Below are positions 20,594 to 34,293 of a DNA stretch of 37,024 nucleotides, piece after piece. The stretch comes from a virus, in the IMG/VR virus record IMGVR_UViG_3300029986_000041, positions 1 through 37,024 of that record, one strand, 5' to 3'. The notes under the pieces are model-generated. The model was not told where the DNA came from. It did not search any database and saw only the letters and a list, made by a program, of their open reading frames with translations. Numbering within the stretch: the first letter of the stretch is position 1; every line of letters starts with the position of its first letter. Position numbers and translations under genes: made by a program.

Positions 20594-20604
20594 CCCCATC
20601 ACCC

Positions 20605-20621: not shown

Positions 20622-20626
20622 TATTT

Positions 20627-20710
20627 GTCAGAGAAGCTTAGAAAAGTCGAAAGACGGGCATAAGCGTTGGAGAAATCCAAAGGTCGCAGGTTCGAATCCT
20701 GCCTCTGACA
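20627..20710 (+). ncRNA. tRNA-like cloverleaf with a GAAA tetraloop instead of an anticodon loop
   Basis: The 7-bp acceptor GTCAGAG (20627-20633) pairs perfectly with CTCTGAC (20703-20709) before discriminator A. Two bases (AA) precede a D-arm-like stem GCTTA/TAAGC (20636-20640 / 20661-20665) holding a small GTC-GAAA-GAC hairpin. One base (G) then precedes hairpin TTGGA-GAAA-TCCAA (20667-20680), where the anticodon arm belongs. Next come the class I variable loop AGGTC and a perfect T-arm GCAGG-TTCGAAT-CCTGC (20686-20702). No CCA is encoded. All spacings fit a tRNA, but the anticodon loop has 4 bases, not 7. It is therefore either a decayed tRNA or a tRNA mimic. The fold is seen; the function is unknown. 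Confidence 0.65.
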
Positions 20711-20727
20711 ATTAATTTAAACGAGCA

Positions 20728-20744
20728 ACAACAGGAAGGGTAGA
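20728..20744 (+). repeat. 17-base direct repeat, copy 2
   Basis: Second exact copy of the repeat at 20605. It ends just before GGAGAATATG, the ribosome site and start of the next gene, so it also serves as that gene's leader. Confidence 0.8.
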
Positions 20745-20751
20745 GGAGAAT

Positions 20752-21006
20752 ATGAAAAATATACCAGCATTTCCACAAAGCATTATGGAAGGTTCAGCAG
20801 GAGGTGTTGTGGGTGGTTGTGATTTTTCTGGAAGATATGAAGGAATGACCTTGAGGGATTATTTTGCAAATACCGCTTTAATTCACATGATGGAACAAGA
20901 AGGCCCAATTAGTGGTGGTGAATATGGGGATGAATTGAGAGCAAGAATAGCAAAAGATTCTTATTTAATGGCAGACGCAATGTTAAAAGAACGGGAGCAA
21001 CCATGA
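20752..21006 (+). CDS. Conserved phage protein with GMTLRDYFA motif
   Basis: 84 residues. 'IPAFPQS' at the start, 'YEGMTLRDYFANTAL' (29-43) and 'SYLMADAML' near the end are typical of a small protein widespread in phages whose function is unknown. GGAG at 20744 is the ribosome site. The stop overlaps the next start (ATGA). Confidence 0.7.
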   Translation: MKNIPAFPQSIMEGSAGGVVGGCDFSGRYEGMTLRDYFANTALIHMMEQEGPISGGEYGDELRARIAKDSYLMADAMLKEREQP

Positions 21007-21368
21007 CCGATAACGAACGTAAGAATACAGGAGTTTTATGTGAGTGTGGCGGAACAATGAACCCAATACGGATTGATACTGAATACGGTTGCACAGAGTA
21101 TCAATGTGAGTTATGTAAGAATGAATTTAGTATTTGGCTTGATATGTTTAGACAGAACGCCAGCCCCCAAGACAATAATGCTCTTGTGCCGTTGGATTCA
21201 GAATTATTAGCAGAGTATTTATTTAAAACAAAAGAAATTCAATCGACCATGTTACAAAGCAAAACTGGATGTCAATTCTTTGCTGACTTAGTCTGTGCTA
21301 AATTCGGCAAAGAAAACAACTCTCTTATTCCTCTGGATAAAGATGTCGTAGGTACTGATGAGTTGTGA
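21003..21368 (+). CDS. Zinc-ribbon protein, unknown
   Basis: 121 residues. N-terminal zinc ribbon CECGG (13-17) and CELC (35-38), spaced about 20 residues. The helical C-terminal half contains 'NALVPLDSELLAEYLF' and 'NNSLIPLDKDVV', two similar P-L-D motifs that may be a short internal repeat. No named family. The end overlaps the next gene by 11 bases. Confidence 0.6.
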   Translation: MTDNERKNTGVLCECGGTMNPIRIDTEYGCTEYQCELCKNEFSIWLDMFRQNASPQDNNALVPLDSELLAEYLFKTKEIQSTMLQSKTGCQFFADLVCAKFGKENNSLIPLDKDVVGTDEL

Positions 21369-21618
21369 CCCTGAATTTAAAGACCATCCTAAAGTTAAAG
21401 AAGCCAGAAAGTTGCTTCAAGAAGCAGAACTTGATTATATTAAAGATAAGAAAGAAATAATCAATAATACCATGTGCGAATGTGGACATATACGAGCGGT
21501 TCACGGAACTTCGTATAGCATGAACTATACAGGCGGAGTTTGTAATAAATGTGATTGTTTAAACTTTTCAAAGAAACTCAATCTATTTGATTCTTTAAGA
21601 GAAAAGAAGATTATTTAA
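21358..21618 (+). CDS. Zinc-binding protein, unknown
   Basis: 86 residues. Charged helical N-terminus (HPKVKEARKLLQEAELDYIKDKK), then CECGH (40-44), an H and 'CNKCDC' that form a zinc knuckle of the kind seen in many small phage proteins. It starts inside the previous gene and ends just before the first identical leader repeat. Confidence 0.6.
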   Translation: MSCDPEFKDHPKVKEARKLLQEAELDYIKDKKEIINNTMCECGHIRAVHGTSYSMNYTGGVCNKCDCLNFSKKLNLFDSLREKKII

Positions 21619-21620
21619 AC

Positions 21621-21640
21621 GGCATTGTTAAAGGAGGGAT
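21621..21640 (+). repeat. Leader repeat, copy 1
   Basis: GGCATTGTTAAAGGAGGGAT directly before ATG 21641. It contains the SD AAAGGAGGG. Identical copies precede the next three genes, and a one-mismatch copy precedes a fifth. Confidence 0.9.
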
Positions 21641-21847
21641 ATGACAATTATTTATAATGGCTGTGATACGTGTGGTCATAATGAATTAAGAAAAATGGTA
21701 GATAGTGGAAAGCCATATGGATATTCTGGTGATATTCCTTGCTTTAGATGTTCAAGATATGGTGTTAAGCAAGATTTGCATACCAATCCAGGCGTAATGG
21801 GTGGTAAGTGTAAGCATGGATTAGATGCTCATTATGGGTGTAATTAA
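21641..21847 (+). CDS. Small zinc-binding protein, unknown
   Basis: 68 residues with C8-D-T-C11-G-H, C34-F-R-C37, then C57 and H59, likely two zinc ligand sets (treble-clef or ribbon). Cysteine patterns are reminiscent of small phage Zn-ribbons. First gene of the run with identical leaders. Function unknown. Confidence 0.6.
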   Translation: MTIIYNGCDTCGHNELRKMVDSGKPYGYSGDIPCFRCSRYGVKQDLHTNPGVMGGKCKHGLDAHYGCN

Positions 21848-21855
21848 TCTTAAAA

Positions 21856-21875
21856 GGCATTGTTAAAGGAGGGAT
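21856..21875 (+). repeat. Leader repeat, copy 2
   Basis: Exact 20-base copy directly before ATG 21876. The downstream gene is unrelated in sequence to the one behind copy 1, so only the leader is shared. Confidence 0.9.
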
Positions 21876-22118
21876 ATGACAGATAGAGATGATTTATTCA
21901 CAGAGGTAGAAAAGATATTATTGGCAAGTAGAGAAGCAGATTTTCTTACAGATGATATTATTAATGATTTGGTTAATTTTATTACTGATGAAAGAAAACG
22001 TATAATGTGGCCAGTCGCAATAGCCTATTGGAAACACCCAAATGATATAAAATCATTATGGGAGGTAATTGACAAATCCATTATTTTAGCAGGAATTACT
22101 GGACAACAGATTTCTTAA
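21876..22118 (+). CDS. Small acidic protein, unknown
   Basis: 80 residues: helical, acidic N-terminus (DDLFTEVEKILLASREADFLTDDI) and 'AIAYWKHPNDIKSLWEVID'. No Cys, no membrane segment, no recognised family. It uses leader copy 2 and is followed by copy 3. Confidence 0.6.
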   Translation: MTDRDDLFTEVEKILLASREADFLTDDIINDLVNFITDERKRIMWPVAIAYWKHPNDIKSLWEVIDKSIILAGITGQQIS

Positions 22119-22120
22119 AC

Positions 22121-22140
22121 GGCATTGTTAAAGGAGGGAT
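22121..22140 (+). repeat. Leader repeat, copy 3
   Basis: Exact copy directly before ATG 22141 (methyltransferase). Confidence 0.9.
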
Positions 22141-22641
22141 ATGAAAGGATTTACACACGAACCACCAGCAGGAGGGCCAGTTGATTGGTATACTCCACCA
22201 GAAATATTTGAAAAGTTGAATATTCAATTTGATCTTGATGTGGCTTATCCGAAAGATAAGATTTTAGATTGGATACCCACTAAGGGATTTATTACAGAGA
22301 GGTCGCTTCAATCGGAATGGCATGGACGGGTATGGATGAATCCACCATATGATCGTCATATACATTTATGGTTAGAAAAATTAAGTAATCATGGTAACGG
22401 AATTGCATTGATATGGGCAAGAACAGATGTTGCTTGGTTTCATACATACGCCCCATTAGCTACCTATGTTTTATTTACTAAAAACAGAATATCTTTCATA
22501 AACCACGAAATGAAAAGAATGGAAAGACCCGCCATTGGATCTCTCTTTCTTGCCTTCGGACAAGAATGTGCAGAAGCATTGATGAAGTCAAATCTTGGTT
22601 TTGGAATGTATACACCAGTGGGGAGAATGTTAAATTCTTAA
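22141..22641 (+). CDS. Phage DNA N-6-adenine methyltransferase (Dam family)
   Basis: 166 residues. 'VDWYTPPEIFEKL' (14-26), 'FDLDVAYP' (30-37) and 'WHGRVWMNPPYDRHIHLWLEKL' around NPPY (67-70) are the motifs of the small phage Dam/adenine methyltransferase family. The N/DPPY motif binds the target adenine. 'ALIWARTDVAWFH' follows. It probably protects phage DNA from host restriction or marks it. No partner nuclease is visible, so it is likely an orphan enzyme. Leader copy 3 gives strong initiation. Confidence 0.85.
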   Translation: MKGFTHEPPAGGPVDWYTPPEIFEKLNIQFDLDVAYPKDKILDWIPTKGFITERSLQSEWHGRVWMNPPYDRHIHLWLEKLSNHGNGIALIWARTDVAWFHTYAPLATYVLFTKNRISFINHEMKRMERPAIGSLFLAFGQECAEALMKSNLGFGMYTPVGRMLNS

Positions 22642-22650
22642 TCGCCTAAC

Positions 22651-22670
22651 GGCATTGTTAAAGGAGGGAT
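22651..22670 (+). repeat. Leader repeat, copy 4
   Basis: Exact copy directly before ATG 22671. Confidence 0.9.
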
Positions 22671-22970
22671 ATGAACGATCAAGATAGCCTTATTGTGAAG
22701 TGTGGTAAATGTCAAGGGCAGATACATTTTCACACCTGCCAAGAACACCACTTTGTTCTTAATTCTGTTTGTCTTGATTGTGGAGAAGTTGCTAAAGTCA
22801 TTGGCGGTTGCCCTGAATGTAAGTTCTTAGTATGCCCTAATTGTGATAAACAAAAAGTTAATGACGATTTGCTATGCGAGAATTGCAAAGCAGAATTTAG
22901 TGAAGATGATTTATGCTCGAATTGTGAAAAATTAGTTAAAGGTTCTTGTTATTATTGCAAGATGGATTAA
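22671..22970 (+). CDS. Multi-zinc-ribbon protein
   Basis: 99 residues with about fourteen Cys in CxxC pairs (CGKC, CLDC, CPEC, CPNC, CENC, CSNC, CYYC), enough for three zinc ribbons. It looks like a bacterial double zinc-ribbon repeated in tandem, probably a nucleic-acid or protein adaptor. Function unknown. Uses leader copy 4. Confidence 0.6.
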   Translation: MNDQDSLIVKCGKCQGQIHFHTCQEHHFVLNSVCLDCGEVAKVIGGCPECKFLVCPNCDKQKVNDDLLCENCKAEFSEDDLCSNCEKLVKGSCYYCKMD

Positions 22971-22972
22971 AA

Positions 22973-22992
22973 GGCATTGTTAAAGGAGGGAA
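22973..22992 (+). repeat. Leader repeat, copy 5 (one change)
   Basis: GGCATTGTTAAAGGAGGGAA, last base changed, directly before ATG 22993. It begins 3 bases after the previous stop region. Confidence 0.88.
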
Positions 22993-23325
22993 ATGAAAAC
23001 ATTTACACATGGGGAAGTTTTATTAATGAAGGCTTGTGAATTACCAAAAGGATTAAAGAAGGTTAATTTATTTAAAGAAGGATGCTATCGGTTAGCCGAT
23101 AGTGAAACAAGTGGGAATTTCCATCTTCTTGAGGCTAAAGAAGGTGTTGATCTATTTGAAGATTCCAATGGCGTCTTGTGGTTAAAAAATGATGTTCCTT
23201 GCAATGTTTATTGTGCTATTAAAGAACGCCATGACAATATTACTTTAGAACCTGGTATTTGGGAAATTGATCGAGCGCAAGAATATGATTATTTAACTGG
23301 GATGAATAAGAAGGTTAGTGATTAA
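22993..23325 (+). CDS. Conserved phage protein of unknown function
   Basis: 110 residues. It has the recognisable arrangement 'HGEVLL..ACELPKG', 'YRLADSETSGNFHLLEAKEG', 'FEDSNGVLWL', 'HDNITLEPGIWEIDRAQEYD' of a small beta-rich protein widespread in phage genomes. No activity is known to me. It uses leader copy 5 and closes the run of identical leaders. Confidence 0.7.
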   Translation: MKTFTHGEVLLMKACELPKGLKKVNLFKEGCYRLADSETSGNFHLLEAKEGVDLFEDSNGVLWLKNDVPCNVYCAIKERHDNITLEPGIWEIDRAQEYDYLTGMNKKVSD

Positions 23326-23371
23326 ACATTCGAGGCTTTTAAATAATAATTAACAAGGAGTGAATAACGCC

Positions 23372-23386
23372 AACGTGGATAAAAGG
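23372..23386 (+). repeat. 15-base direct repeat, copy 1
   Basis: AACGTGGATAAAAGG, repeated at 23525-23539. Both copies lie just upstream of a start codon, here the small membrane protein. Confidence 0.8.
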
Positions 23387-23388
23387 TC

Positions 23389-23526
23389 ATGAAAATTATC
23401 AAGTGGTTATTAATTAAGGATTACTTTCCAAGATGGGCAACAATTATTATTATGATCCCGATGATTACACATTTACTATTTGGAGTTTGGACTCTATCAG
23501 ATTTAATTAAATTATTTTGGAAATAA
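23389..23526 (+). CDS. Small membrane protein
   Basis: 45 residues, with a basic N-terminus (KIIKWLLIKDYFPRW) followed by a strong transmembrane segment (ATIIIMIPMITHLLFGVW) and a short aromatic tail. It is flanked by the two copies of a 15-base direct repeat, so gene and leader may have moved as one cassette. No family recognised. It opens the sugar cassette. Confidence 0.55.
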   Translation: MKIIKWLLIKDYFPRWATIIIMIPMITHLLFGVWTLSDLIKLFWK

Positions 23527-23539
23527 CGTGGATAAAAGG
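23525..23539 (+). repeat. 15-base direct repeat, copy 2
   Basis: Second copy, overlapping the end of the membrane-protein gene and leading into GGAGCTAGGATG of the FAD enzyme. Confidence 0.8.
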
Positions 23540-23546
23540 AGCTAGG

Positions 23547-24686
23547 ATGAACTTGATATTAGGAGCAGGTATGGCAGGGCTTGGGGCAGGTATAAAAACT
23601 GAATATCCTATATATGAGCAATCAGATAAGGCTGGCGGGATCTGCCGTGATTACGTTAAAGACGGATTCACCTTTTCAAATGGTGGGGGACACTATCTGT
23701 TTGGCAAAGGCCCCGGACTTGATTATATTAAATCTTTAGTGCCAGTAAACGAGATTGAGCGCAAGGCAGGGGTTTATTACAATACGACTTTCCCGTATCC
23801 TTTTCAGACAACAGCAGAAAAAGACAATCACATTAGCACGTATCTACATGGTGGAAATGCAACAATAAAAGATTGGCTATTTGATAAGTTTGGAAAAGAT
23901 CAATGCAATCTATTTTTTAATCCCTTTAATGAGAAGTATACTGCTGGTTTATATGATAGGATTATCCAAGTAGACGACTACAAAAGCCCCCCTGCGGGTG
24001 GTAAAGGCTTCTGTCCTACCTTTTGTGATCCCGTAAACGGATTAAGTGATTTAGTGGATAAGATGGCGAGTAAGTGCGATATAAAATATGGTTATCAAGC
24101 AAAAAAAATATACGTTGAAAAAAAAAGAGTTTATTTTGAAGGGAATAATTTTGGACAAGACAAAGAATACGACAAGTTAATATCAACAATCCCCCTAAAC
24201 AAGTTAATGGAAATGTGCGGCCAGAAAGTAAATCTTCCTTACACTTCCGTATTAGTCATAAACATAGGGGCAGAAGTAGGCGCTTGCACACCCAAAGAGC
24301 ATTGGATGTATATACCTTTTTCTAAAACACCTTTTTATAGAGTGGGCTTTTATTCAAATATTCATCCGAATAAAGCGCCAAATGGAACGGTCGGGTTATC
24401 TGTTGAAATGGCGTTTCTACCAGATCAGAAAATAGACATACCTAAAATCACAAGAGACGTTATTCAAGAATTGCAAGAATGGCGTTGGATTGGAGAAGAA
24501 GTTATTACAAAAGATCCCACGGTTGTGCCAATGGCTTATACTTGGGTTTACGATAGGGAAACAGTACCCAAGGCGTTAGCATGGCTTAAAGAAAGAGATA
24601 TAATCTCAATTGGCAGGTACGGTAAACATCGTTTTCAAGGCATGGTAGAGAGCGTGGGGGACGGGTTAAATGTCAATCTTGACTAG
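23547..24686 (+). CDS. UDP-galactopyranose mutase-like FAD enzyme
   Basis: 379 residues. ATG 23547 sits behind GGAG; an in-frame start at 23517 would begin inside the previous gene. FAD site GAGMAGLGAG (6-15) with Glu24, then 'GGICRDYVKDGFTFSNGGGHYLF' across 30-52. 'FPYPFQT' and 'FNPFNEKY' match the FAD oxidoreductase/mutase family common in polysaccharide clusters, whose best-known member converts UDP-galactopyranose to the furanose. Sequence near 'GRYGKHRFQGM' fits the sugar/FAD end. The mutase call is moderate; a broader protoporphyrinogen-oxidase-like oxidoreductase is possible. It overlaps the next GT2 gene by 17 bases. Confidence 0.7.
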   Translation: MNLILGAGMAGLGAGIKTEYPIYEQSDKAGGICRDYVKDGFTFSNGGGHYLFGKGPGLDYIKSLVPVNEIERKAGVYYNTTFPYPFQTTAEKDNHISTYLHGGNATIKDWLFDKFGKDQCNLFFNPFNEKYTAGLYDRIIQVDDYKSPPAGGKGFCPTFCDPVNGLSDLVDKMASKCDIKYGYQAKKIYVEKKRVYFEGNNFGQDKEYDKLISTIPLNKLMEMCGQKVNLPYTSVLVINIGAEVGACTPKEHWMYIPFSKTPFYRVGFYSNIHPNKAPNGTVGLSVEMAFLPDQKIDIPKITRDVIQELQEWRWIGEEVITKDPTVVPMAYTWVYDRETVPKALAWLKERDIISIGRYGKHRFQGMVESVGDGLNVNLD

Positions 24687-25359
24687 CGTTATCGTAGCAA
24701 ATCACGGAAGGGACACTTCTAAGCTGGTATCTTCTTTGCCGGCAGGTGTGGAATATCTCGAAATCAATCAAGGATTAGAGCGATCAGCCCAAAGGAATAT
24801 TGGTATTGATAACGCCCGCGGCAAGTATTTACTTATTCTTGATAGCGACCAAAACATTTCACCTGGATTGATTAGAGAGTGCGAAACTTTAATGTGGGCA
24901 GGGTTTTCGTGCGTTTATATCCCTGAAATCATAGTAGCCAAGTCTTTCTTTGGGAAGATTAGGAAATTTGAACGGGAATTTTACACCGGCACAGCAATAG
25001 ATGTTCCGAGATTTGTTGATAAGAGATACTGCCCTAAATTTAATTTAGAATTATCGGGGCCCGAAGACGCGGATTGGGGCAATAGAATTAGAGGATGTCG
25101 GGCAATAAGCACTTCGCCCCTCTATCACCACGACGACGTGAGCTTTATTGAGTACATGAGAAAGAAGATTTATTACACGAAGTCAATGCGTAAGTACGCA
25201 GAATTATGGCCTGATGACAAATGTTTGAACCTTAAGTACAGATGTTGGGATGTTTTCGTGGAAGATGGAAAATGGCGCAAGTTGATCGCCCATCCTATTT
25301 TGACTTTAGGAATAATATTTTTATTGATAGTCAGGGGAATAATTTATGCGAAAAGATAA
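24670..25359 (+). CDS. GT2 glycosyltransferase with C-terminal membrane anchor
   Basis: 229 residues. GT-A fold: 'SVIVANHGRDTSKLVSSLP', 'ERSAQRNIGIDNARGKYLLILDSDQNI' (split by helix) with the DxD-type DSD at 57-59, and acceptor-side 'LSGPEDADWGNRI' (about 136-148). A hydrophobic tail 'HPILTLGIIFLLIVRGIIYA' likely anchors it to the inner membrane. It transfers a sugar to a lipid-linked or surface acceptor. The start overlaps the mutase-like gene. Confidence 0.75.
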   Translation: MSILTSVIVANHGRDTSKLVSSLPAGVEYLEINQGLERSAQRNIGIDNARGKYLLILDSDQNISPGLIRECETLMWAGFSCVYIPEIIVAKSFFGKIRKFEREFYTGTAIDVPRFVDKRYCPKFNLELSGPEDADWGNRIRGCRAISTSPLYHHDDVSFIEYMRKKIYYTKSMRKYAELWPDDKCLNLKYRCWDVFVEDGKWRKLIAHPILTLGIIFLLIVRGIIYAKR

Positions 25360-25507
25360 TCTTCAAAGACAATCCGTAGTTTTTAAATGTAAACAATGTG
25401 GTAAAATGATAGAACATTTCACACGCAAGCCAATGTTAATGACAAAAACCTATTGTGATGATTGCGTCTACCAAAGAAAGAGAAAATATTATGCCTCTGT
25501 CCGTTAG
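25346..25507 (+). CDS. Small zinc-finger protein within the sugar cassette
   Basis: 53 residues, 'FKCKQCGKMIEHF' and 'TYCDDCVYQRKRK' give two CxxC pairs about 25 residues apart, one zinc site, followed by a strongly basic end. It overlaps the GT2 genes on both sides. A nucleic-acid-binding role is likely; it does not fit the sugar pathway and may be an inserted accessory gene. Confidence 0.55.
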   Translation: MRKDNLQRQSVVFKCKQCGKMIEHFTRKPMLMTKTYCDDCVYQRKRKYYASVR

Positions 25508-26354
25508 TGTGTGTATCGCGTGCTACAAAAATGATCCGTTCTTAAATGAAGCAATCGCAAGTTGCACAATGCAAAGCTATCCAGTAACAGTTTGTGTTTA
25601 TCACGACAACGTAGGTGTCGGAACGGGAGAAGCTTTCAATCGGGCAATAGCAATGTCTAAAGACGACATAATTGTGCTTCTTTGTTCCGATGATGTTTTT
25701 ACTGACCCCAATGTAATCTCTGATATTGTGAGCGTCTTTGAAACAATACCAGAAATAGGTCACGTTTCTAGGTGGTATCATCAGTTTGTAGAAAACGACA
25801 GGCATCCAGTAAGGGCATGGCGCGGTGAAGATGTGATTGAGCTTGCCAACAACCCTTCCGGTATGGCTTTTAGGAGAGAGGCATTGTGTTGTGATGTGAA
25901 AAACAACTGGTTTGATCCACCCCGCAGATTAACAAACAGAATATTTGTTGAAGTTGCAGATTTAGTCAGAAGCGTTATAAAAGATGGGTGGGCATATTCA
26001 ATACTTCGGTACGACACAGTAGCCGTTAGGATTCACCAGAGCATTTCAAGAACGCCTGGGTACTATAAGAAAATGTTTACCACAAGCCCTGTATTGGAAT
26101 GGGCAAAGTTAGGTTGGAAATCAAAAGACTTCACAAGTTTAATTCAGATAAAAAACAATTTCACAACAAAGGCGGTGTTAGATGAAATCAGGAATTTTAT
26201 TTCTGTTGATATGGGGAATTTACTTCACCCTGCTTTTTGGTTTTTTAGCGTGGTGGCACTTATTACACCGAGATCAATCCTCTATAAAATTCCCGAAATC
26301 TACCGGGCGACTTGGGGCAGACTTACAACCAAAGAGGTAAAGCGTGAAAAATAA
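25491..26354 (+). CDS. GT2 glycosyltransferase
   Basis: 287 residues from ATG 25491 (upstream in-frame codons at 25455 lie in the previous gene). 'SVSVCIACYKNDPFLNEAI' opening, and 'DDIIVLLCSDDVFTDPNVI' with the DD metal motif. The middle contains 'NPSGMAFRREAL' and 'TNRIFVEVADLV'. The C-terminal end 'PAFWFFSVVALITP' is membrane-like. It shares these motifs with the next gene, so the two are paralogues. Start overlaps the zinc gene; end overlaps the next start. Confidence 0.75.
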   Translation: MPLSVSVCIACYKNDPFLNEAIASCTMQSYPVTVCVYHDNVGVGTGEAFNRAIAMSKDDIIVLLCSDDVFTDPNVISDIVSVFETIPEIGHVSRWYHQFVENDRHPVRAWRGEDVIELANNPSGMAFRREALCCDVKNNWFDPPRRLTNRIFVEVADLVRSVIKDGWAYSILRYDTVAVRIHQSISRTPGYYKKMFTTSPVLEWAKLGWKSKDFTSLIQIKNNFTTKAVLDEIRNFISVDMGNLLHPAFWFFSVVALITPRSILYKIPEIYRATWGRLTTKEVKREK

Positions 26355-27252
26355 AATCACCGTCGCTATTCCATCATACAATAACGAAAAGCACATAGGA
26401 GAAGCTATTGGAAGCGCAAGGATGCAAGAATATCCATTAAAAAATATTCTCATTATAGATGATTGCTCAACGGATAAAACGTTTAATATAGCAAAAGAAT
26501 TTATGAGTGATGAGAATATTGAAGTTTATAAGAATGAGAGCAATTTAGGAATAGGAAAAAATTTAGAAAAGTTAATGACAAAATGCGAAACAAAGTACAT
26601 AGTATATTTATGTGCAGACGATATTTTCACGCACCCGAAGGTCTTGACAGATATTGTACATATATTTGATTACTCGCCGGAGATTGGCGTAGTCGGAAGG
26701 TACGGATTTTATTTCATGGATGGACACAGAGGCGCAATAGGCGTTTGCAGAGATAAAAATATTCTTACTTCTTCGTGTTGCCCGTCTGGGGTAGCTTTCC
26801 GCACAAGACCAGACATCGCTAAATCCACAAACCGAATTTTCGTTGAAATGCCTACAATGGTTGCAAGTTTTCTGAAACAATACCGATGGACAATGATAGA
26901 ATGGGACACGGTAGCTTTTCGCTATGCGCCCGGAATAAATACCGGCACCAAGCCTTCGTATTACACAGAATCCCCAACACAGAATTGGATTGACCTCATG
27001 GGTCAGAATTACCAAGACTTCTCAATATTCATTACACTTAAAAACCGAGCACCTAGATTGTTGTTAAAGGAGATATGGCTACACATAGAAAACGACAAGA
27101 CGGTATTAAAGAACCCTATGTTCTGGCTGTATGGCCTAACGGCGTTCGTGTTACCCGCCTTCATTCTGAAAAGATTAACAAGATTCTACAGACACAGGCT
27201 GTCAAGAATGTCTGCAAAAATAATAGAAAGGCCAAGTGAACAAAAACATTGA
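26344..27252 (+). CDS. GT2 glycosyltransferase, paralogue of the preceding
   Basis: 302 residues, GTG start. 'ITVAIPSYNNEKHIGEAIGSAR', 'NILIIDDCSTDKTF' with the nucleotide-binding DDCSTD, 'YIVYLCADDIFTHPKVL' with the metal-binding ADD, 'CPSGVAFR', 'TNRIFVEMPTMV' and a C-terminal 'MFWLYGLTAFVLPAFI' membrane-like segment mirror the preceding enzyme. The pair likely arose by tandem duplication and then changed substrate or acceptor choice. It overlaps the previous gene by 11 bases. Confidence 0.78.
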   Translation: MKNKITVAIPSYNNEKHIGEAIGSARMQEYPLKNILIIDDCSTDKTFNIAKEFMSDENIEVYKNESNLGIGKNLEKLMTKCETKYIVYLCADDIFTHPKVLTDIVHIFDYSPEIGVVGRYGFYFMDGHRGAIGVCRDKNILTSSCCPSGVAFRTRPDIAKSTNRIFVEMPTMVASFLKQYRWTMIEWDTVAFRYAPGINTGTKPSYYTESPTQNWIDLMGQNYQDFSIFITLKNRAPRLLLKEIWLHIENDKTVLKNPMFWLYGLTAFVLPAFILKRLTRFYRHRLSRMSAKIIERPSEQKH

Positions 27253-27331
27253 AATAATAATGAGAGTTATCGCAAAACTTGTCAAAGAAGGAAAACCATT
27301 TGTGTTTATAATTGGGGGAGATAATGCCTAA
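27236..27331 (+). CDS. Possible 31-residue peptide between GT2 and RmlB-like genes
   Basis: GTG 27236 behind GAAAGG. The frame runs 'MNKNIEIIMRVIAKLVKEGK' and then 'PFVFIIGGDNA', overlapping genes on both sides. It carries the GGGGGAG ribosome site of the next gene. Moderately hydrophobic. It could be a coupling peptide or non-functional. Confidence 0.35.
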   Translation: MNKNIEIIMRVIAKLVKEGKPFVFIIGGDNA

Positions 27332-28334
27332 AACAATTTTAATTACGGGAGTTGGGGGATTCATTGGAAGTCATTGTTTAAGCCATGTGCTTGTAAACAC
27401 AGATTGGAACGTAGTAGGGATTGATAGTTGGAACCACAAAGGAATTTCAGAAAGAGTTAGCGAAAGCACCCATTACCAACGGAACAAGCATAGGGTAAAC
27501 GTATATACTCACGATTTAAGCGCCCCTATATCAAACGTCATGCAAGAAAAAATAGGGAAAGTGGATTATATCATCAATTTCGCAAGTCAGAGCCATGTTG
27601 ATCGTTCGCTAACAGATCCCGTTCCCTTCGTACAGAACAACGTCAACGTCATTTTAACAATGTTAGAGTACGTTCGCAAGTCACAGCCTGAAAAGTTTAT
27701 TCAGATAGGCACAGATGAAACCTACGGGCCTACTGATGGAATCCACGCACATAAAGAATGGGACTGTATCAGACCATCAAATCCTTACTCCGCAAGCAAG
27801 GCCGCACAAGAAGCTATTTGTATAAGTTATTGGCGCAGTTACAACGTACCTATCATTCTCACAAATATAATGAATAACTACGCAGAAACCCAAGACCCGG
27901 AGAAATTCGTACCGATGGTTATTAAGAAAGTAATTAACGAAGAAACGGTTTATATCCATTCAGATCCTACTTGTCAGTTCTCTGGATCAAGGTTTTGGTT
28001 ACATCCTCGTAATTTATCAGACGCTTTAATATTCTTACTTAAAGAAGTTCCTGTTGATTATTACCCAAAACATGACCGGCCCCAAAGATTTAATGTTGTT
28101 GGAGAGGTTCAGATCACAAATTTAGATATGGCTCTAAAGATAGCTGAAATAATTGGCAAGCCTCTTAAATATGAATTAGTAGACGCCCATACCAGCCGGG
28201 CAGGTCACGACCTACATTATGGGCTTGACGGCAGAAAGTTAAAATCTTACGGATACGAATTCCCTAAAGGATTTGAAGAATCTTTGCGCAAGACGGTTGA
28301 ATGGACGATTAATAACCCAAGATGGTTAAAATGA
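27324..28334 (+). CDS. dTDP-glucose 4,6-dehydratase-like SDR enzyme
   Basis: 336 residues. NAD-binding GVGGFIGSH (9-17), then 'IINFASQSHVDRSL', the dehydratase triad T130-D131-E132 in 'IQIGTDETYGPTDG', and Y155-xxx-K159 in 'NPYSASKAAQE'. The R/TDE-plus-YxxxK pattern is that of RmlB-type NDP-sugar 4,6-dehydratases, giving 4-keto-6-deoxy-sugars for rhamnose-like or amino sugars. A related GDP-mannose or UDP-sugar dehydratase is the alternative. GGGGGAG is the ribosome site. Confidence 0.8.
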   Translation: MPKTILITGVGGFIGSHCLSHVLVNTDWNVVGIDSWNHKGISERVSESTHYQRNKHRVNVYTHDLSAPISNVMQEKIGKVDYIINFASQSHVDRSLTDPVPFVQNNVNVILTMLEYVRKSQPEKFIQIGTDETYGPTDGIHAHKEWDCIRPSNPYSASKAAQEAICISYWRSYNVPIILTNIMNNYAETQDPEKFVPMVIKKVINEETVYIHSDPTCQFSGSRFWLHPRNLSDALIFLLKEVPVDYYPKHDRPQRFNVVGEVQITNLDMALKIAEIIGKPLKYELVDAHTSRAGHDLHYGLDGRKLKSYGYEFPKGFEESLRKTVEWTINNPRWLK

Positions 28335-29356
28335 GATATTTATTTCCTCTTAATCCCTACAATCAGCAAAGGCAACTGGAAAAGATGGTTTGGGTCTACC
28401 CTGCACATTTGGCTATGTACGCAACTTATTTAAAGAATCAAGGGCATGAAGTAATATGGAATCATAAAGGCCCAGCCAAAGCATCGGATAGAACAATTGA
28501 CAATGATTTTCAAATAGATGTTCCGTTTGAAGACTTGCCATTCCCAGACAGACTATTTACCGACGGTAAGAATAAAAGATGGCAAGATTACGGCAACTAC
28601 AAGTTTAAGCCAGCCACGCACATGATGGCATCAAACCTTTGCTGGTACGGCCGTTGTACTTTCTGCATCGATACCAAGAAACTCGAAGAAGGAGAACATA
28701 GAGGGTTAAGAACGGTAGATCACTGCATGGAGGAGATAGATGACCTTATTGCCAATGGATATAAAGAAGTCTTTGATGATTCAGGCACGTTCCCTCTTGG
28801 GAAGTGGTTGGAAGAATTCTGTGTCAAAATGCTTATTAATGGAAGGCGAAAGCACATTAAGATTGGCTGTAATATGCGAGTCCAAGACGCACCTTGGGGG
28901 ATCATGGGAGGTGCTGGTTTTAGATTTATCCTCTTTGGCATCGAGTCAGCAAATCAGCCAACTCTTGACAGAATTAAAAAATCAGCCCGCGCAGATGAAA
29001 CGGTTAGGATACTCAAAGAAGCATCAGAAGCAGGTTTAGAGCCACACGGGACGTTTATGACAGGGTATCCCTGGGAAACGGAGAAGGATGAAAAACGAAC
29101 AATCGAACTCTGCCACTACTTGCTCAAAAAGGGGTATCTTAAAACGGCTCAGGCATCGGTATATAGTCCGCCTCGTACAAGTCCTAGCCCTGATTCTGTT
29201 GGGCACCGTTATTTGCCCCGTTTTTATGATGTATATAAGTCTCCTGAGTTCATTATTCGCAAGGTAAGTGATATAAGATGCTGGCAGGATTTTACTTATA
29301 ACTTACGTGGCGCTCGTTTAGTTGTGGAGGAAAAATGTCGCAAAATGTTCTCATAA
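28331..29356 (+). CDS. Radical SAM enzyme
   Basis: 341 residues, ATG 28331 overlapping the previous stop as ATGA. Cys104, Cys109 and Cys112 in 'SNLCWYGRCTFC' form a CX4CX2C cluster motif, a variant of the usual CX3CX2C. 'FRFILFGIESANQPTLDRI' and 'GLEPHGTFMTGYPWET' are standard later motifs of B12-type/elongator-like radical SAM proteins. The N-terminus has only a trace of a cobalamin-binding domain ('YPAHLAMYATYLKNQGHEV'). In a sugar cluster it might methylate or rearrange a sugar or lipid; the actual reaction is unknown. Confidence 0.75.
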   Translation: MRYLFPLNPYNQQRQLEKMVWVYPAHLAMYATYLKNQGHEVIWNHKGPAKASDRTIDNDFQIDVPFEDLPFPDRLFTDGKNKRWQDYGNYKFKPATHMMASNLCWYGRCTFCIDTKKLEEGEHRGLRTVDHCMEEIDDLIANGYKEVFDDSGTFPLGKWLEEFCVKMLINGRRKHIKIGCNMRVQDAPWGIMGGAGFRFILFGIESANQPTLDRIKKSARADETVRILKEASEAGLEPHGTFMTGYPWETEKDEKRTIELCHYLLKKGYLKTAQASVYSPPRTSPSPDSVGHRYLPRFYDVYKSPEFIIRKVSDIRCWQDFTYNLRGARLVVEEKCRKMFS

Positions 29357-30717
29357 TTTTATTGGTCAACTTTCTGTTTTACGCCAAGACCCTACGTATG
29401 GGTTACGTGTCTGATGATATAGTTTCAGCGCAACGATCGCCACATAAGAATCCATTTCTACATTGGTTTTGGGTTCTTGAGGGACATTCAAAGAGCGTAT
29501 CATATAAAAAAATGGAACAAGGTGACTCTAATTTCTTAATGCCGGGGGTCGATCATGCGATTACTACGTTGCTTCATAGCTTGGTTTGCGTTGGAATTTA
29601 CTTGGGCTTGGGAGATAATCAAGTTAGTTTTATTGCTGCTTTGCTGTTTTCTTTCAATCCTGTTAATAATCAAGGTAGCGTCTGGATAAGTGGACGCGGG
29701 TATGTATTAAGTGCTTTAGGGATGGTTTGGGCATTAGCTTTACCTATGGAGATGGGCGGGCTGATGTTGCTGGGAGCAACCTATAGCAATGCGGGATTCT
29801 CCTTGCCGATTATCCTATTAGGCTCAAGCCATCCTTATTTATTTATATTTGCGCCTTTATGCTGGTGGTTTCACATGAAACGTTTTCAAAAGAACGTGAA
29901 ACAAAAGATGGACATGGAGTTATTTACGGAAGATAAGCACATTCACCCAAAGAAGCTGATCCTTGCGGTAAAAACGTTTGGCATTTATCTAAGTCATGCG
30001 ATTATTCCATTTAAAACCACGTTTTATCATTCTTATCTTGAAAGCATTGCCGGTTGCAACGCACAGAAAGCGTATACACTTTGTAAGTTTTTCTGGTTTG
30101 GCGCAGGATCTTTGGTGCTGATGCTTTGGTATATTTGTACGCACAGATGGGACATGGTTTGTTTCGGGATATTGTGGTGGTGTGTTGGGATTGCGCCATT
30201 TTGTAATTTGATGAGGATGCAACAGGAGTTAGGGGAAAGATACGTATATGCGGCTAACGTTGGCGCTATGCTCATCCTGGCGCACTTTATTTCACCATAT
30301 CCCGTTGTATGTGCCTTTTTTATCGGAATGTACGCAATGAAGACATGGGATTTTATTTCCGGGTACAAGGATGATTTTTGGTTTATAGAAGTCTGCCGAA
30401 TCAATCAGCCTAAGTCTTGGTTTGCTTGGCACATCAGCGCAGTGAAAAGATGGGACGTTCAATCATACCGGGAGGCTGTTATATTTTGGGTGATGGCTAA
30501 AAACCTAAGTCCAAAAGAATTTAAGTTACTATTTAACCTTGCGGCCGCGCTCGTAGTTATGGGAAATCAATGTGTTGAACCGTTACGCTCAAATATGATC
30601 CGTGAAGGATTAGGATTTCTCGCAGAAGCAGAGAAGAACATTCCCAAAGGACAGGAGAAAATGGCGGGAGAGTTTATTACAAATTTCAGAAATAACAAAG
30701 TTGCAATTTTAATTTAG
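29335..30717 (+). CDS. GT-C membrane glycosyltransferase (TMTC-like)
   Basis: 460 residues. ATG 29335 sits behind GGAGG, overlapping the radical SAM gene by 22 bases. There are about eight hydrophobic segments. 'MGYVSDDIV' places the catalytic-type Asp pair D27-D28 in the first outside loop; 'FNPVNNQGSVWISGRGYVLSAL' and 'ELGERYVYAANVGAMLILAHF' are the typical later motifs of the GT-C proteins with C-terminal TPR (TMTC/PMT style). The tail after about 350 is TPR-like helix. GT-C enzymes use a polyprenyl-phosphate sugar as donor on the outer face of the inner membrane. The adjacent DPM1-like gene supplies such a donor. Very unusual in a small phage. Confidence 0.65.
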   Translation: MSQNVLIILLVNFLFYAKTLRMGYVSDDIVSAQRSPHKNPFLHWFWVLEGHSKSVSYKKMEQGDSNFLMPGVDHAITTLLHSLVCVGIYLGLGDNQVSFIAALLFSFNPVNNQGSVWISGRGYVLSALGMVWALALPMEMGGLMLLGATYSNAGFSLPIILLGSSHPYLFIFAPLCWWFHMKRFQKNVKQKMDMELFTEDKHIHPKKLILAVKTFGIYLSHAIIPFKTTFYHSYLESIAGCNAQKAYTLCKFFWFGAGSLVLMLWYICTHRWDMVCFGILWWCVGIAPFCNLMRMQQELGERYVYAANVGAMLILAHFISPYPVVCAFFIGMYAMKTWDFISGYKDDFWFIEVCRINQPKSWFAWHISAVKRWDVQSYREAVIFWVMAKNLSPKEFKLLFNLAAALVVMGNQCVEPLRSNMIREGLGFLAEAEKNIPKGQEKMAGEFITNFRNNKVAILI

Positions 30718-30725
30718 GAGAAATT

Positions 30726-31313
30726 ATGAGTGTTAGTCTTATTATGCCCTGTCACAATGAGGGTAAACGTCAAGAGTTCATGGAAGATATTGAAGAAATC
30801 CTTCCAATGGTAAATCAGATTATAGGTTGTAATGATAAGCACAGCATGGGTAAAGGTTGGGCCGTGCGTGAAGCTTTAAGATGCGCAACAGGAGATATTG
30901 TGATAATCCTCGACGGCGATGGGGATATAAACCCTAAGATGGTTAGGCGGTTACTTCCTTACCTTGAAGACTATGATGTTGTTTGTGGAGTTCGTCCTAT
31001 AAGCGGGTTATGGTCAAGAAGGTGTTTAACTTATTGGTCAAGAATGTACATAGCGCTATTGTTTGGTGTAAAGGTTTCGTCTCAAACAGGATTGAAAATA
31101 TTTAAACGATATGCACTCGAGGAATGGTATAATAATGGATTCTTAGCCGATCTGGAAATACTTTGTATGGCTAAAAAGAAAGGCATGAGAATTATTGAAG
31201 TTCCAATAGAAGGCGAAACAAATAAACCAATGAAATTTTCAAGCATTTGGAGAACTTTCAAAGAATCAATAACTCTTTTCTTAGAAATGAAGGATTATAA
31301 GCATGATAAATAA
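30726..31313 (+). CDS. Polyprenyl-phosphate sugar synthase (DPM1-like GT2)
   Basis: 195 residues. 'VSLIMPCHNEGKR', 'GKGWAVREALRCATGDIVIILDGDGDINP' (split) with DGDGD at 63-67, 'SSQTGLKIFKR' and 'DLEILCMAKKKGMRIIEVPI'. This is the dolichol/polyprenyl-phosphate mannose or glucose synthase pattern, which transfers a sugar from NDP-sugar to the lipid phosphate on the inside of the inner membrane. It lacks the C-terminal membrane helices seen in some relatives (about 195 residues total). Placed 8 bases after the GT-C gene, it very likely makes its donor. Confidence 0.8.
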   Translation: MSVSLIMPCHNEGKRQEFMEDIEEILPMVNQIIGCNDKHSMGKGWAVREALRCATGDIVIILDGDGDINPKMVRRLLPYLEDYDVVCGVRPISGLWSRRCLTYWSRMYIALLFGVKVSSQTGLKIFKRYALEEWYNNGFLADLEILCMAKKKGMRIIEVPIEGETNKPMKFSSIWRTFKESITLFLEMKDYKHDK

Positions 31314-31440
31314 AATCTGTCAAGGATGTGGCAAGACATTTAAGGTTTGGCCGTGCAGGGCAATCGCTAAATATTGCTCTAAGAAATGCCACAATGTTAA
31401 AGGTGACAAGAACCCAAAAACAGGAAGATTTTGTGCCTAA
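31303..31440 (+). CDS. Zinc-finger peptide, possible N-terminal remnant of an HNH endonuclease
   Basis: 45 residues. 'ICQGCGKTFKVWPCRAIAKYCSKKCH' (split at the loop) is the four-Cys zinc finger seen at the beginning of many phage HNH homing nucleases (C..CGk.F...kyCS..C). The nuclease core is missing. About 185 bases later a fragment resembling an HNH C-terminus lies in the spacer (31625-31792). It begins inside the DPM1-like gene. Confidence 0.5.
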   Translation: MINKICQGCGKTFKVWPCRAIAKYCSKKCHNVKGDKNPKTGRFCA

Positions 31441-31582
31441 AGAGCTTTGCCCTTATTGTGGTAAAAAACCCATCCTTAGAAAGACCTGTGGCCACTGTGT
31501 TTGTCAATTCAAACGGCACATTCTTCGTATGAGACTTAACCGCAAAACAGATCGTAAGTGTCTTTCTCGTAGAGTCATATAA
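31433..31582 (+). CDS. Small zinc-ribbon protein
   Basis: 49 residues, GTG start at 31433, overlapping the preceding peptide by 8 bases. 'CPYCGKK' (6-12) and 'CGHCVC' (19-24) make one zinc site; the rest is strongly basic (KRHILRMRLNRKTDRK). Probably nucleic-acid binding. No family recognised. After it, about 215 bases are free of intact genes: a TATAAT at 31595-31600 without a clear -35, then the HNH remnant. Confidence 0.5.
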   Translation: MPKELCPYCGKKPILRKTCGHCVCQFKRHILRMRLNRKTDRKCLSRRVI

Positions 31583-31624
31583 TTACCCTCCCTTTATAAT
31601 ATATTGTGAATACTTTTGAAATAA

Positions 31625-31792
31625 ATTGCAATTATACCTTGGAATAATACACTAAAATTAAGACCAGACAAAGAAGCTGGCAATCCTTATGTTAATAGCT
31701 GGAAAGATTATCCAGAGGAAAGATTTGAAATTAACAATGGACAGACTCTTTGCTTTAAGTGTCATTGTAAAACAGACAACCACGGGCGTTAA
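31625..31792 (+). pseudogene. C-terminal remnant of an HNH endonuclease
   Basis: An open frame of 55 codons without a start codon, closed by TAA 4 bases before the terminase gene. It reads 'NPYVNSWKDYPEERFEINNG' followed by 'QTLCFKCHCKTDNHGR'. This is the usual end of HNH nucleases: '...yPelRFd..NgiTLC..CH..'. The core His-His motif upstream is absent. With the zinc finger at 31303 it suggests an HNH gene that lost its middle by deletion. The match is by eye. Confidence 0.6.
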
Positions 31793-31796
31793 TACA

Positions 31797-32111
31797 ATGG
31801 GATTCACTAAAGGCGATCCAAATATAAACAGGAATGGCAGACCAAAGAACGCAGAGCCGGAGCTATTAAGAGAGGCTTTAAGGCGTGAAGGTGAAAAGCG
31901 TGGAGAAGATTTTTGGGATAAAGTAGCTCAATATGCGTTTACTGATAAGAACATGATGATAGCAATAGTAAAGAAGTTTGTTCCAGACCTTAATCATTCA
32001 GAGATTGATAGCAATATAAACGTCACCAAAATGCCAACAGTTAAGATCGACGACAAAGAACAGGAGCTTCACTTTGGTAGAGTTGCCAACGCTTCTCCAA
32101 GTTCCAACTAA
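31797..32111 (+). CDS. Terminase small subunit-like protein
   Basis: 104 residues. 'MGFTKGDPNINRNGRPKNAEPELL' is the 'F..G.sgNpnGRPkg' start common to small-terminase-associated proteins; a helical middle follows (DFWDKVAQYAFTDKNMMIAIVKK). The long C-terminal end overlaps the large subunit start by 38 bases. It should recognise the packaging site and hand DNA to the large subunit. Earlier in-frame codons from 31689 lie in the HNH remnant and are not used in this reading. Confidence 0.7.
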   Translation: MGFTKGDPNINRNGRPKNAEPELLREALRREGEKRGEDFWDKVAQYAFTDKNMMIAIVKKFVPDLNHSEIDSNINVTKMPTVKIDDKEQELHFGRVANASPSSN

Positions 32112-33435
32112 GTTACTCCCGTTGATTAAGGGATTTGACTTCTATCAAAACTTCTTGATTGAAGGTGGACGAGGTGGTGGAAAATCTCACGCAGTCGCAA
32201 GATGGATACTTTATCTTTGTGAGATAAGACAATGCAGGATAGTATGCGGGCGCGAGATCCAAAACAGCATTAAAGAATCAGTCTACTCATTACTCACCGA
32301 TTTAATCTTAGAACACAAATTAAACTTCCAGATATTCGCAAAGAGCATTGTGAGTAGAACCAATGGCTCAGAGATAAGCTTTAGAGGATTCCGGGAGCAA
32401 GGCTCATTCAACATTCAAGGGATGGAAGCTATAGATTTAGTTTGGATAGATGAAGCGCAAGCTATCACAAAGCAAACGCTAGATAGGTTAATCCCAACAA
32501 TCCGTAAAGACACCTCAAAGATAATCTTCACCATGAATAGGTTTGTAAGGAATGACGCGGTTTACTCCGAGTACAAGGACAGGGAAGATTGCTTACACAT
32601 CCATCTGAATTACACAGACAATCAATTTTGCACACAGAAGCTCATACATGAAGCAGAGGTTTGTAAGAATAAATCAGCACAAGACTTCAATCATATCTGG
32701 TTAGGTCTCCCGCTAGACAAGACAGAAGATTCAGTGTTTAGTATCACAGAGATTGATTCGGTTAAGCTAGCCAAGCACACACCTAAGGCAGGTTATGGTT
32801 TTAGGATTGCCGGAGTTGACATAGCTAGGTTTGGTGATGATAAGTGTGCGGTCGTGGTTATTCAACAGATGGGAGCTTTGCATTGGGAAGTCATTCACGT
32901 AGATCAGTGGGACAAGAAAGACGAAACCTTTACGTGTGGGAAGATTGCCGAGCTTGTAGCCAGGCACAAAGTAGACAAGGCGATTATAGATGTTGATGGG
33001 CTTGGTGGACCGTACTATGACCTGTTAGCTTCAGGAGAGCGAGACAAGCCGGCAGAGAAGAAGATATATTCAGGCTTTAGAAACCCTGTTATAGGCTATT
33101 CAGACAACAAATGGTTTGGTAATCCACGCACAGAGAACACATACACGCTCAAAGAAATGATAAGCGAAGACCATATCTGTATTACCAATGAAGATTTGTT
33201 GAAAGAGCTTGAGACCTTGAGATATGAATATGACCACAATCAACGCAAGATACTTATAAGCAAGGACAGGATGAAGAAGGATGGGGTTAAGTCACCCAAC
33301 ATGGCAGATGCTTTGATAATGGCAGTCAGCTTGATTAGTGGTATTAAAACAGAGCAAGACAATACCTATGAGACGGCTCGTAGGCGAAGAAGCAATCAAA
33401 CCGAAAACCTTTTTTCAATAGCGGGGATACGTTAA
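32074..33435 (+). CDS. Terminase large subunit
   Basis: 453 residues, TTG start with GGAG at 32063-32066, 7 bases away, inside the small subunit gene. ATPase domain: Walker A GGRGGGKS (31-38), Walker B DLVWIDE (121-127), 'TMNRF' coupling motif (153-157). Nuclease domain: Asp249 in 'GVDIARFGDD', Asp306/Asp308 in 'IIDVDGLGG', and 'SPNMADALIMA' near the end with the third Asp. It cuts and pumps DNA through the portal. The size and motifs are complete. Confidence 0.92.
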   Translation: MVELPTLLQVPTKLLPLIKGFDFYQNFLIEGGRGGGKSHAVARWILYLCEIRQCRIVCGREIQNSIKESVYSLLTDLILEHKLNFQIFAKSIVSRTNGSEISFRGFREQGSFNIQGMEAIDLVWIDEAQAITKQTLDRLIPTIRKDTSKIIFTMNRFVRNDAVYSEYKDREDCLHIHLNYTDNQFCTQKLIHEAEVCKNKSAQDFNHIWLGLPLDKTEDSVFSITEIDSVKLAKHTPKAGYGFRIAGVDIARFGDDKCAVVVIQQMGALHWEVIHVDQWDKKDETFTCGKIAELVARHKVDKAIIDVDGLGGPYYDLLASGERDKPAEKKIYSGFRNPVIGYSDNKWFGNPRTENTYTLKEMISEDHICITNEDLLKELETLRYEYDHNQRKILISKDRMKKDGVKSPNMADALIMAVSLISGIKTEQDNTYETARRRRSNQTENLFSIAGIR

Positions 33436-33617
33436 TGGGATTCACACCAGAAGAATTGAAAGCATCAGATCAGAAGTGGGAGTTGGTTCAGAAGGGTAAT
33501 AACGATGAAACGCACAGGTTAAGGATATTCAAAGGCTGGTTAGTTAAGTACACCAAGCAGGGTAATGTGGGTGAGGTTGTTTATCTTGAAGATCCAAAGG
33601 GTGAATGGAAATTATGA
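33435..33617 (+). CDS. Small protein after terminase, unknown
   Basis: 60 residues, TAATG overlap with the terminase stop. It is mostly beta-like (KWELVQKGNNDETHRLRIFKGWLVKYTKQGNVGEVVYLEDP), perhaps a small SH3-type barrel. No family recognised. The next gene starts at its stop (ATGA). Confidence 0.6.
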   Translation: MGFTPEELKASDQKWELVQKGNNDETHRLRIFKGWLVKYTKQGNVGEVVYLEDPKGEWKL

Positions 33618-34009
33618 CAATCGCACAGTATTTAATAGATAACTATTATGCGCATTATAAAGGTAACAGGATGGACATTGTGCCTACTGAAGCGCAGATT
33701 AAACAGGCGATGCTTAATCATCCTGAGAAGATAATCGTTGTGAGAGATGGCAGTATCCGAGGTATAGCGATATATTTAACCTTGACTGATGAGACATACC
33801 AGCGCATAGAGACGTTGGACATTAGTCAAGTTGATGTTGTTAAGGCATTATTGTTAGAGACAGGAAAGAACTTTCATTTTGTTTTAGTAGCGGCTGATAG
33901 CTATAAGACATTGAGACTAATACGAAGCCGGGCTTTAAAGCTAAATCCGAAGACATTTAGCTGGTGGAATCCTGACTTTAAACGATTACATAAGTATGAG
34001 GTGAGATAA
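33614..34009 (+). CDS. GNAT acetyltransferase-like phage protein
   Basis: 131 residues from ATG 33614 (ATGA overlap); ATG 33605 would add three residues. 'NHPEKIIVVRDGSIRGIAIYLTLTDE' (strands 2-4 of a GNAT core), 'NFHFVLVAADSYKTLRLIRSRALKLNPKTFSWWNPD' (split) matches a family found beside terminase/portal in podoviruses. The acetyl-CoA loop Q/R-x-x-G-x-G/A is not clear, so an enzymatic role is uncertain. Function in packaging or assembly is unknown. Confidence 0.6.
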   Translation: MTIAQYLIDNYYAHYKGNRMDIVPTEAQIKQAMLNHPEKIIVVRDGSIRGIAIYLTLTDETYQRIETLDISQVDVVKALLLETGKNFHFVLVAADSYKTLRLIRSRALKLNPKTFSWWNPDFKRLHKYEVR

Positions 34010-34293
34010 TGCCGTGGGTATTTGCAATAGCTGCTGTAGTTGAAGGAGCAGTGTCAATAACACAATCTATTCAATCGGCCGATCAATCCAAGAAAGCCAC
34101 AGAAGCAGCGGCAGGACAGCAAGCAGCAGCCACAGCAGAACTACAGCAATCACAGCAAACAGCTAGCACACAAGCACAGAACGCACTAACAGCCAAGCGA
34201 GCAGCGGCAGCTTCAAGCACAGATATATTCACTTCACCATTAGGTTTAGCAACCCAAGCAACTACGGCGAAAAAAACGTTGACCGGACAATGA
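34009..34293 (+). CDS. Ala/Gln-rich small virion-type protein
   Basis: 94 residues, TAATG overlap. Short hydrophobic N-terminus (WVFAIAAVVEGAVSI), then Ala/Gln/Ser/Thr-rich helix (QQAAATAELQQSQQTASTQAQ). Composition resembles the internal virion protein at 6778, though no real alignment is visible. It could be a minor internal head protein. It lies one base before the portal gene. Confidence 0.6.
   Translation: MPWVFAIAAVVEGAVSITQSIQSADQSKKATEAAAGQQAAATAELQQSQQTASTQAQNALTAKRAAAASSTDIFTSPLGLATQATTAKKTLTGQ

Follow-up and report, generated by a model that had tools for sequence, protein, structure and literature searches.

Eight adjacent sugar-related genes, at positions 23547-31313 of the window, form what we believe, with slightly better than even confidence, to be a phage-borne envelope-glycan conversion cassette of the seroconversion or superinfection exclusion type. 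The window is the whole 37,024-bp stretch analysed here, IMG/VR virus record IMGVR_UViG_3300029986_000041. The system would be of a known kind, namely periplasmic-face glycosylation; the unusual feature is its layout, in which a constant core is combined with swappable cassettes. The original prediction of a glycosylation pathway filling a fifth of the genome is supported by the gene assignments: all eight ORFs are present on the same strand, can be assigned at the family level, and cover 7767 bp, or 21.1% of the unique genome. Its description of the genes as nearly all overlapping was overstated, as only four of the seven junctions overlap (by 17, 11, 13 and 22 nt), the other three being gapped (95, 59 and 8 nt). 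The genes of the block and its downstream neighbors are as follows.

23547..24686, + strand: UDP-galactopyranose-mutase (UGM)-like FAD enzyme (PF01593; profile match to PDB 4dsg)
24670..25359, + strand: GT2 glycosyltransferase a (PF00535, E=1.6e-7)
25455..26354, + strand: GT2 glycosyltransferase b (PF00535, E=3.5e-7)
26344..27252, + strand: GT2 glycosyltransferase c (PF00535, E=4.6e-23)
27324..28334, + strand: RmlB-like NDP-hexose 4,6-dehydratase (TIGR01181, PDB dTDP-glucose 4,6-dehydratases, motifs)
28322..29356, + strand: radical SAM enzyme, conserved core (PF04055, alignment, structure model)
29335..30717, + strand: GT-C-like membrane glycosyltransferase with C-terminal TPR-like helices, conserved core (alignment, model, distant homologs)
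30726..31313, + strand: DPM1/GtrB-like polyprenyl-phosphate-sugar synthase (GT2), soluble, with no TM domain (phrog_841, profiles)
31328..31582, + strand: small Cys-rich ORF that separates the block from the terminase (conserved in relatives)
32074..33435, + strand: terminase large subunit, the downstream border of the cassette in the clade (phrog_2 / phrog_3717)

The start of the FAD enzyme gene at 23547 is preceded by a good Shine-Dalgarno sequence (AAAGGAGctaggATG). The RmlB-like ORF opens at TTG 27312 and its Shine-Dalgarno sequence belongs to ATG 27324, while the real start of GT2 b may be ATG 25491 rather than 25455. GT2 a has a hydrophobic C-terminal segment in its sequence and is 64-66% identical to its counterparts in L005, L075 and G006; GT2 b and GT2 c are paralogous (26-29% identity). 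The Cys-rich ORF at 31328-31582 shows 39-80% identity in relatives over its C-terminal half and 62-80% in close relatives over its last 45 residues.

The possibility that the block is bacterial DNA, attached to the phage through an assembly error or a single capture event, has a negligible probability, and nothing was found in its favor. Contig IMGVR_UViG_3300030004_000237, which may not be fully independent of the window should the two samples be related, is 100% identical to it over positions 19600-36286, that is, across both block borders. All eight genes are found in the same order in L005 and L075 (about 50-67% amino acid identity), and the same eight-gene order was recognized by profile in L101 and L104 (about 45-65% for the pairs measured). 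Hence the search for the whole cluster in other phages, suggested in the original prediction, found it in four of them, and the chimeric junctions that the prediction had named as its refutation are excluded by the identical contig and by synteny elsewhere. Recent capture from a host is also unsupported, since the GT-C gene co-diverges with the portal gene and the GC content of the block (0.36-0.42) does not depart from that of the rest of the window. An identical gene set and order in independent phages, together with low dN/dS, sets the block above chance.

The virion genes of the window are of the T7/HTVC010P type, as the PHROG scan identified the portal (phrog_332), the major capsid protein (MCP, phrog_3437), the terminase, the tail tube proteins (phrog_394 and phrog_376) and an internal virion protein (phrog_418). 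The window also encodes an Erf-like annealing protein, NinB/NinG-like recombination genes and a replication-initiation-like protein; the PHROG scans revealed neither a DNA nor an RNA polymerase in it. The closest portals among named phages, with HTVC010P-type pelagiphages on top, are about 30% identical, and the block belongs to a podovirus clade that is a distant relation of HTVC010P. HTVC010P-type podoviruses share the terL-portal-MCP-tail order (portal identity 30-32%), but HTVC010P, unlike the window, has no annotated sugar gene in the stretch inspected around terL. The absence of an integrase claimed earlier holds for the window, where both a tyrosine integrase and a large serine recombinase were searched for, but not for its relatives, as three of 15 carry a tyrosine integrase; parts of the clade are therefore probably temperate.

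The ends of the window are identical over 254 bp (1-254 and 36771-37024), and in two relatives the terminal identity is 123 and 127 bp. As 254 is twice 127, the identity possibly comes from overlapping ends in the assembly of a circular map and not from terminal repeats that physically exist. Scans for promoters and terminators gave overall chance-level results.

We then considered the distribution of the block among relatives, which are metagenomic contigs, the near-identical ones in part perhaps coming from shared samples. A portal scan yielded 52 loci, and GT-C was present in every one of them with at least 2.7 kb upstream of the terminase, except for L046 and L052, both of which lack the block and have other genes next to the terminase; the block is thus dispensable. 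A GT-C scan yielded 62 loci, making 65 examined together with L075, L076 and the window (E-values from the locus scans are relative to the candidates). Among loci with enough flanking sequence, the radical SAM gene lies upstream of GT-C in 39 of 43 and the clade terminase downstream in 40 of 42, the two terminase exceptions (L135 and L140) being one phage type in which the block adjoins tail genes. After dereplication at 95% GT-C identity, 23 loci with at least 5.5 kb upstream were kept: 21 of these have the radical SAM enzyme, 20 the DPM-like synthase proper and 19 an SDR. The rarity claimed in the original prediction is confirmed among named phages, as a search of 50,697 named phage records detected nothing related to GT-C, the radical SAM enzyme or the DPM-like protein. 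It does not apply inside the lineage, in which the locus is standard. A search of named plasmids likewise detected no GT-C relative, and no description of the locus was found in the open-access literature searched.

Three alternative cassettes are situated upstream of the common core. Cassette A, with the order UGM-GT2-GT2-GT2-RmlB-rSAM-GTC-DPM, was found in six loci (the window, L100, L101, L104, L075 and the variant L109). Cassette B, in 13 loci, some of them with genes missing or outside the available sequence, comprises an aminotransferase (DegT), a methyltransferase, GT4, GT2s, an HprK-like ATPase, DPM, GT2, SDR, rSAM and GTC. Cassette C, in three loci, features transketolase halves, GT2s, a methyltransferase and extra radical SAMs, followed by rSAM and GTC; L126 has GT-C and no genes of cassettes A, B or C. 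The type A contig G001 (L005) has an extra sugar C-methyltransferase of the Methyltransf_13/14 type, which would fit a 4-keto-6-deoxy-sugar intermediate. The HprK-like P-loop protein, labeled by sequence inspection, is seen in 13 of the 23 dereplicated loci, all of type B (for example, L076 4617-5426, G008 9502-10290 and L135 6065-6862; the G008 copy has no Pfam match). Small HNH- or zinc-finger-like ORFs, recognized by inspection, lie between sugar genes in G005 (10817-11287), L076 (5962-6414) and L075 (8507-8953), which suggests homing elements that may aid cassette exchange.

The core appears to be inherited along with the virion genes. Distances between GT-C proteins correlate with those between portals (Mantel r=0.83), and the distances for the synthase with those for GT-C (r=0.78), while the radical SAM enzyme follows less well (r=0.41). 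Between L045 and the window the radical SAM enzyme is 72% identical and GT-C only 39%, suggesting exchange of the radical SAM gene between lineages. The GT-C ORF of L045 (5109-7066) is itself interrupted: some 450 bp, which include a small ORF, separate its two fragments, possibly a mobile insertion. For block genes with unsaturated dS (compared with L003, L005 and L075) dN/dS is 0.11-0.25, similar to 0.07-0.14 for terminase, portal and MCP; this demonstrates purifying selection, though only roughly, as many dS values are saturated. We tentatively propose, giving it somewhat less than an even chance, that this is a clade-wide surface-glycan switching locus, with a constant core (GT-C, radical SAM enzyme and polyprenyl-phosphate-sugar synthase) inherited with the virion genes and upstream cassettes exchanged between lineages. 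It would be for these phages, mostly without a recognized integrase, what O-antigen and capsule loci are for bacteria.

Position and inheritance could also point to the virion itself: the locus adjoins the terminase and head genes and is co-inherited with them, as might be expected if block enzymes glycosylated capsid or tail proteins. However, GT-C superfamily enzymes use polyprenyl-linked donors at the outer face of the membrane, whereas virions assemble in the cytoplasm. Moreover, of all genes in the block GT-C is the most constant, and cassettes are swapped without matching change in the head genes, so that virion decoration is a rather improbable reading. Sugar modification of phage DNA is far less probable still; some phages are capable of DNA glucosylation, but the constant component here is a membrane GT-C, and no role in DNA hypermodification is known for the radical SAM, UGM-like and RmlB-like enzymes. 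Virion decoration, host-surface remodeling and lipid modification had originally been put forward as equals. The anatomy of the block now favors the envelope side, as it combines a polyprenyl-phosphate-sugar synthase with a membrane GT-C that has an acidic motif in its first predicted periplasmic loop.

A profile of five phage homologs of the UGM-like enzyme matches the eukaryotic-type UDP-galactopyranose mutase PDB 4dsg (3ute is another of this type) with E=2.6e-29 over nearly the full length, positions 3-356 of 369. The phage enzyme keeps the GGxH, WxY..FYR and GRxG motifs; among the residues which we take to contact UDP-Galp in UGM, the Arg of FYR, the Trp/Tyr of WxY and the Arg of GRxG are kept and the others are changed. 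It is shorter than the eukaryotic-type enzymes and unlike them at several ligand residues; its UGM activity is a prediction. The RmlB-like SDR matches TIGR01181 with E=1.1e-58 and has the GxxGFxG, TDExYG (TDE triad) and YxxxK motifs; its score of 198.8 bits is below the equivalog cut-off of 365. The product of 30726-31313 matches the GtrB-like phrog_841 and, by profile, the Pyrococcus DPM synthase 5mlz (E=7e-7), GtrB sll0501 and ArnC, and is a predicted polyprenyl-phosphate-sugar synthase of the DPM/GtrB class.

The radical SAM enzyme (PF04055) has a Cx4Cx2C motif, a spacing shared with OxsB, and a shortened N-terminal domain. Its structure model (pLDDT 88) gave MgmA and AprD4 as the best Foldseek matches, and profile and fold together place it nearest to MgmA, AprD4 (a sugar diol dehydratase) and OxsB, the nearest family being the B12-type one. 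The cobalamin domain of that family is mostly missing, the cluster motif being preceded by only some 100 residues with no PF02310 match. That each of the three cassettes includes the radical SAM enzyme suggests that they share a substrate.

This enzyme set also bears on whether a new glycolipid or short polysaccharide is built rather than an existing one decorated. At least three GT2s, the mutase and the dehydratase upstream would suit such a product, as would the aminotransferase, methyltransferase, GT4 and transketolase of cassettes B and C and a radical SAM enzyme nearest to a family with modifiers of lipids and sugars among its members. On the other hand, no flippase or polymerase was recognized in the ORFs searched and no initiating phosphoglycosyltransferase in the Pfam and PHROG scans, and we consider this explanation unlikely.

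The GT-C candidate has no Pfam match. Its AF2 model (pLDDT 87) shows TM1, a long SDD-bearing loop, more membrane helices and C-terminal TPR-like helices, and the SDD, predicted to lie in the first periplasmic loop, is invariant in 26 of 26 sequences. A rough charge analysis is compatible with active-site loops outside, residues 172-213 being positively charged as fits a cytoplasmic loop. Foldseek against PDB returned mostly TPRs and one weak PIG-U match, with no solved GT-C structure a good match to the membrane half, for which Foldseek against viral structures was uninformative as well; membership in GT-C thus rests on motif, topology and homologs. A TPR-free profile detected Patescibacteria proteins of 500-660 aa (in 54 of 380 genomes at E<=0.01, the best E being 1.4e-12), which have the DD loop, the WIS motif, ERYxY and TPRs, as does the phage protein. 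In the phylum of G016, the full profile matched TPRs only and the TPR-free one nothing.

A cellular origin of GT-C was considered and rejected, as the scans gave phage-sized contigs and distant Patescibacteria homologs only. The search of cellular genome contigs found only two, L075 (RXKC01000030.1, in a Saccharibacteria MAG) and L076 (JAHFDG010000034.1, in a Methanoperedens MAG). Both are whole-phage-sized and probably mis-binned, and hence provide no host evidence.

The same architecture, an N-terminal GT-C-like half followed by TPRs, is that of the TMTC1-4 O-mannosyltransferases (GT-C/PMT clan) and is shared by the Patescibacteria homologs, so that the phage protein might modify exported host or phage proteins via a polyprenyl-phosphate-hexose. 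Of the TMTC motifs (M1-M5 and M7; PMC7801869), M1 (DD) is present in 26 of 26 phage sequences, the arginine of M3 is kept, which meets this motif partly, and M7 shows ER in 24 of 26 and the full ERxxY in 14 of 26, the rest having ERFxA or DRYFW. However, M2 (SHKSYRP), M4 (KE(T/Q)xxT) and M5 (DW) were unseen on inspection of the alignment, and TMTC_DUF1736 (PF08409) had no Pfam match in 18 homologs; membership in the TMTC family is ruled out by the motifs. The phage protein is also shorter, viral and associated with other sugar genes, and the long set of NDP-sugar and GT2 genes points beyond a single hexose. Protein O-glycosylation is accordingly an unlikely role, as improbable as the building of a new glycan. 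We infer a TMTC/ArnT-type mode of action, like that of polyprenyl-linked transferases, for a protein that, judging by sequence and model, appears to represent a new TPR-bearing GT-C family.

Under the favored reading, envelope-glycan conversion, the cytoplasmic UGM-like mutase, RmlB-like 4,6-dehydratase, GT2s and radical SAM enzyme would produce and further modify a sugar of an unusual kind or a short glycan. The DPM1/GtrB-like GT2 would load this sugar, or a hexose, on host polyprenyl phosphate, and a host flippase or scramblase would bring it to the periplasmic side. The TPR-bearing GT-C would then pass it to an envelope acceptor, which may be O-antigen, capsule, a glycolipid or an exported protein. 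With the surface changed, the same or competing phages would no longer adsorb while infection lasts, nor to lysogens in the case of relatives with an integrase. In this scheme the donor, acceptor, flippase, topology and biological role are what we infer. The envelope reading is supported by the joint presence of GT-C and the DPM/GtrB-like synthase in 20 of 23 dereplicated loci and by three cassettes on one core, as expected under diversifying surface selection. The SDD, model and loop charges of GT-C, its co-divergence with portal and synthase, and the low dN/dS speak for it as well. Given the integrases in three of 15 relatives, some members of the clade plausibly practice lysogenic conversion; the window phage may benefit from superinfection exclusion during infection or be temperate by some other means. 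Several results count against the envelope reading. A GtrA-type flippase (PF04138) is absent from 16 genomes, in a search that detected the positive control; the membrane half of GT-C has no good match among solved GT-C structures; no integrase was found in the window to give it the classical benefit of lysogenic conversion; and L046 and L052 do without the block.

Three-component systems of periplasmic glycosylation, which include phage seroconversion (PMC3688519), are characterized by the pairing of a polyprenyl-phosphate-sugar synthase with a GT-C enzyme (PMC11127046). Like the block, the GtrA/GtrB/GtrC systems (P22 and Sf phages; ORF12-15/GT136) are phage-borne, combine a GtrB/DPM-class synthase with a GT-C-like enzyme and have diverse cassettes. 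In contrast to them, the block has no GtrA found, a TPR-bearing GT-C unrelated in sequence, a radical SAM core and many NDP-sugar and GT2 genes, and it adjoins the terminase. Phage-borne glycosyltransferases have also been proposed to alter the host O-chain in pelagimyophages (PMC7029224), a host-surface change like that suggested here, but these are myoviruses whose LPS-related genes are GT8-dominated and lie in a host-recognition hypervariable region, with no conserved radical SAM-GT-C core described.

If the proposed role is true, small phages without a recognized integrase spend a fifth of their genome on repainting the host. Such repainting has so far been associated chiefly with large phages and with temperate ones that cause seroconversion. 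In addition, the locus supplies a GT-C family predicted to be new as well as a small set of predicted sugar-modifying radical SAM enzymes, and its cassettes, swapped in one slot, form a natural series for studying phage competition via surface sugars.

Two features elsewhere in the window were also observed. At 12708-14328, past the virion genes, an S-adenosylmethionine decarboxylase-like ORF (PF02675, E=1.4e-5) overlaps an ATP-grasp-like ORF (labeled by inspection; weak purD match), and both are conserved in G001 and G002 (64-84% and 65-69%, respectively). At 21608-23009, five consecutive small genes are each preceded by a near-identical leader (GGCATTGTTAAAGGAGGGATATG), which resembles a repeated translation-initiation cassette.
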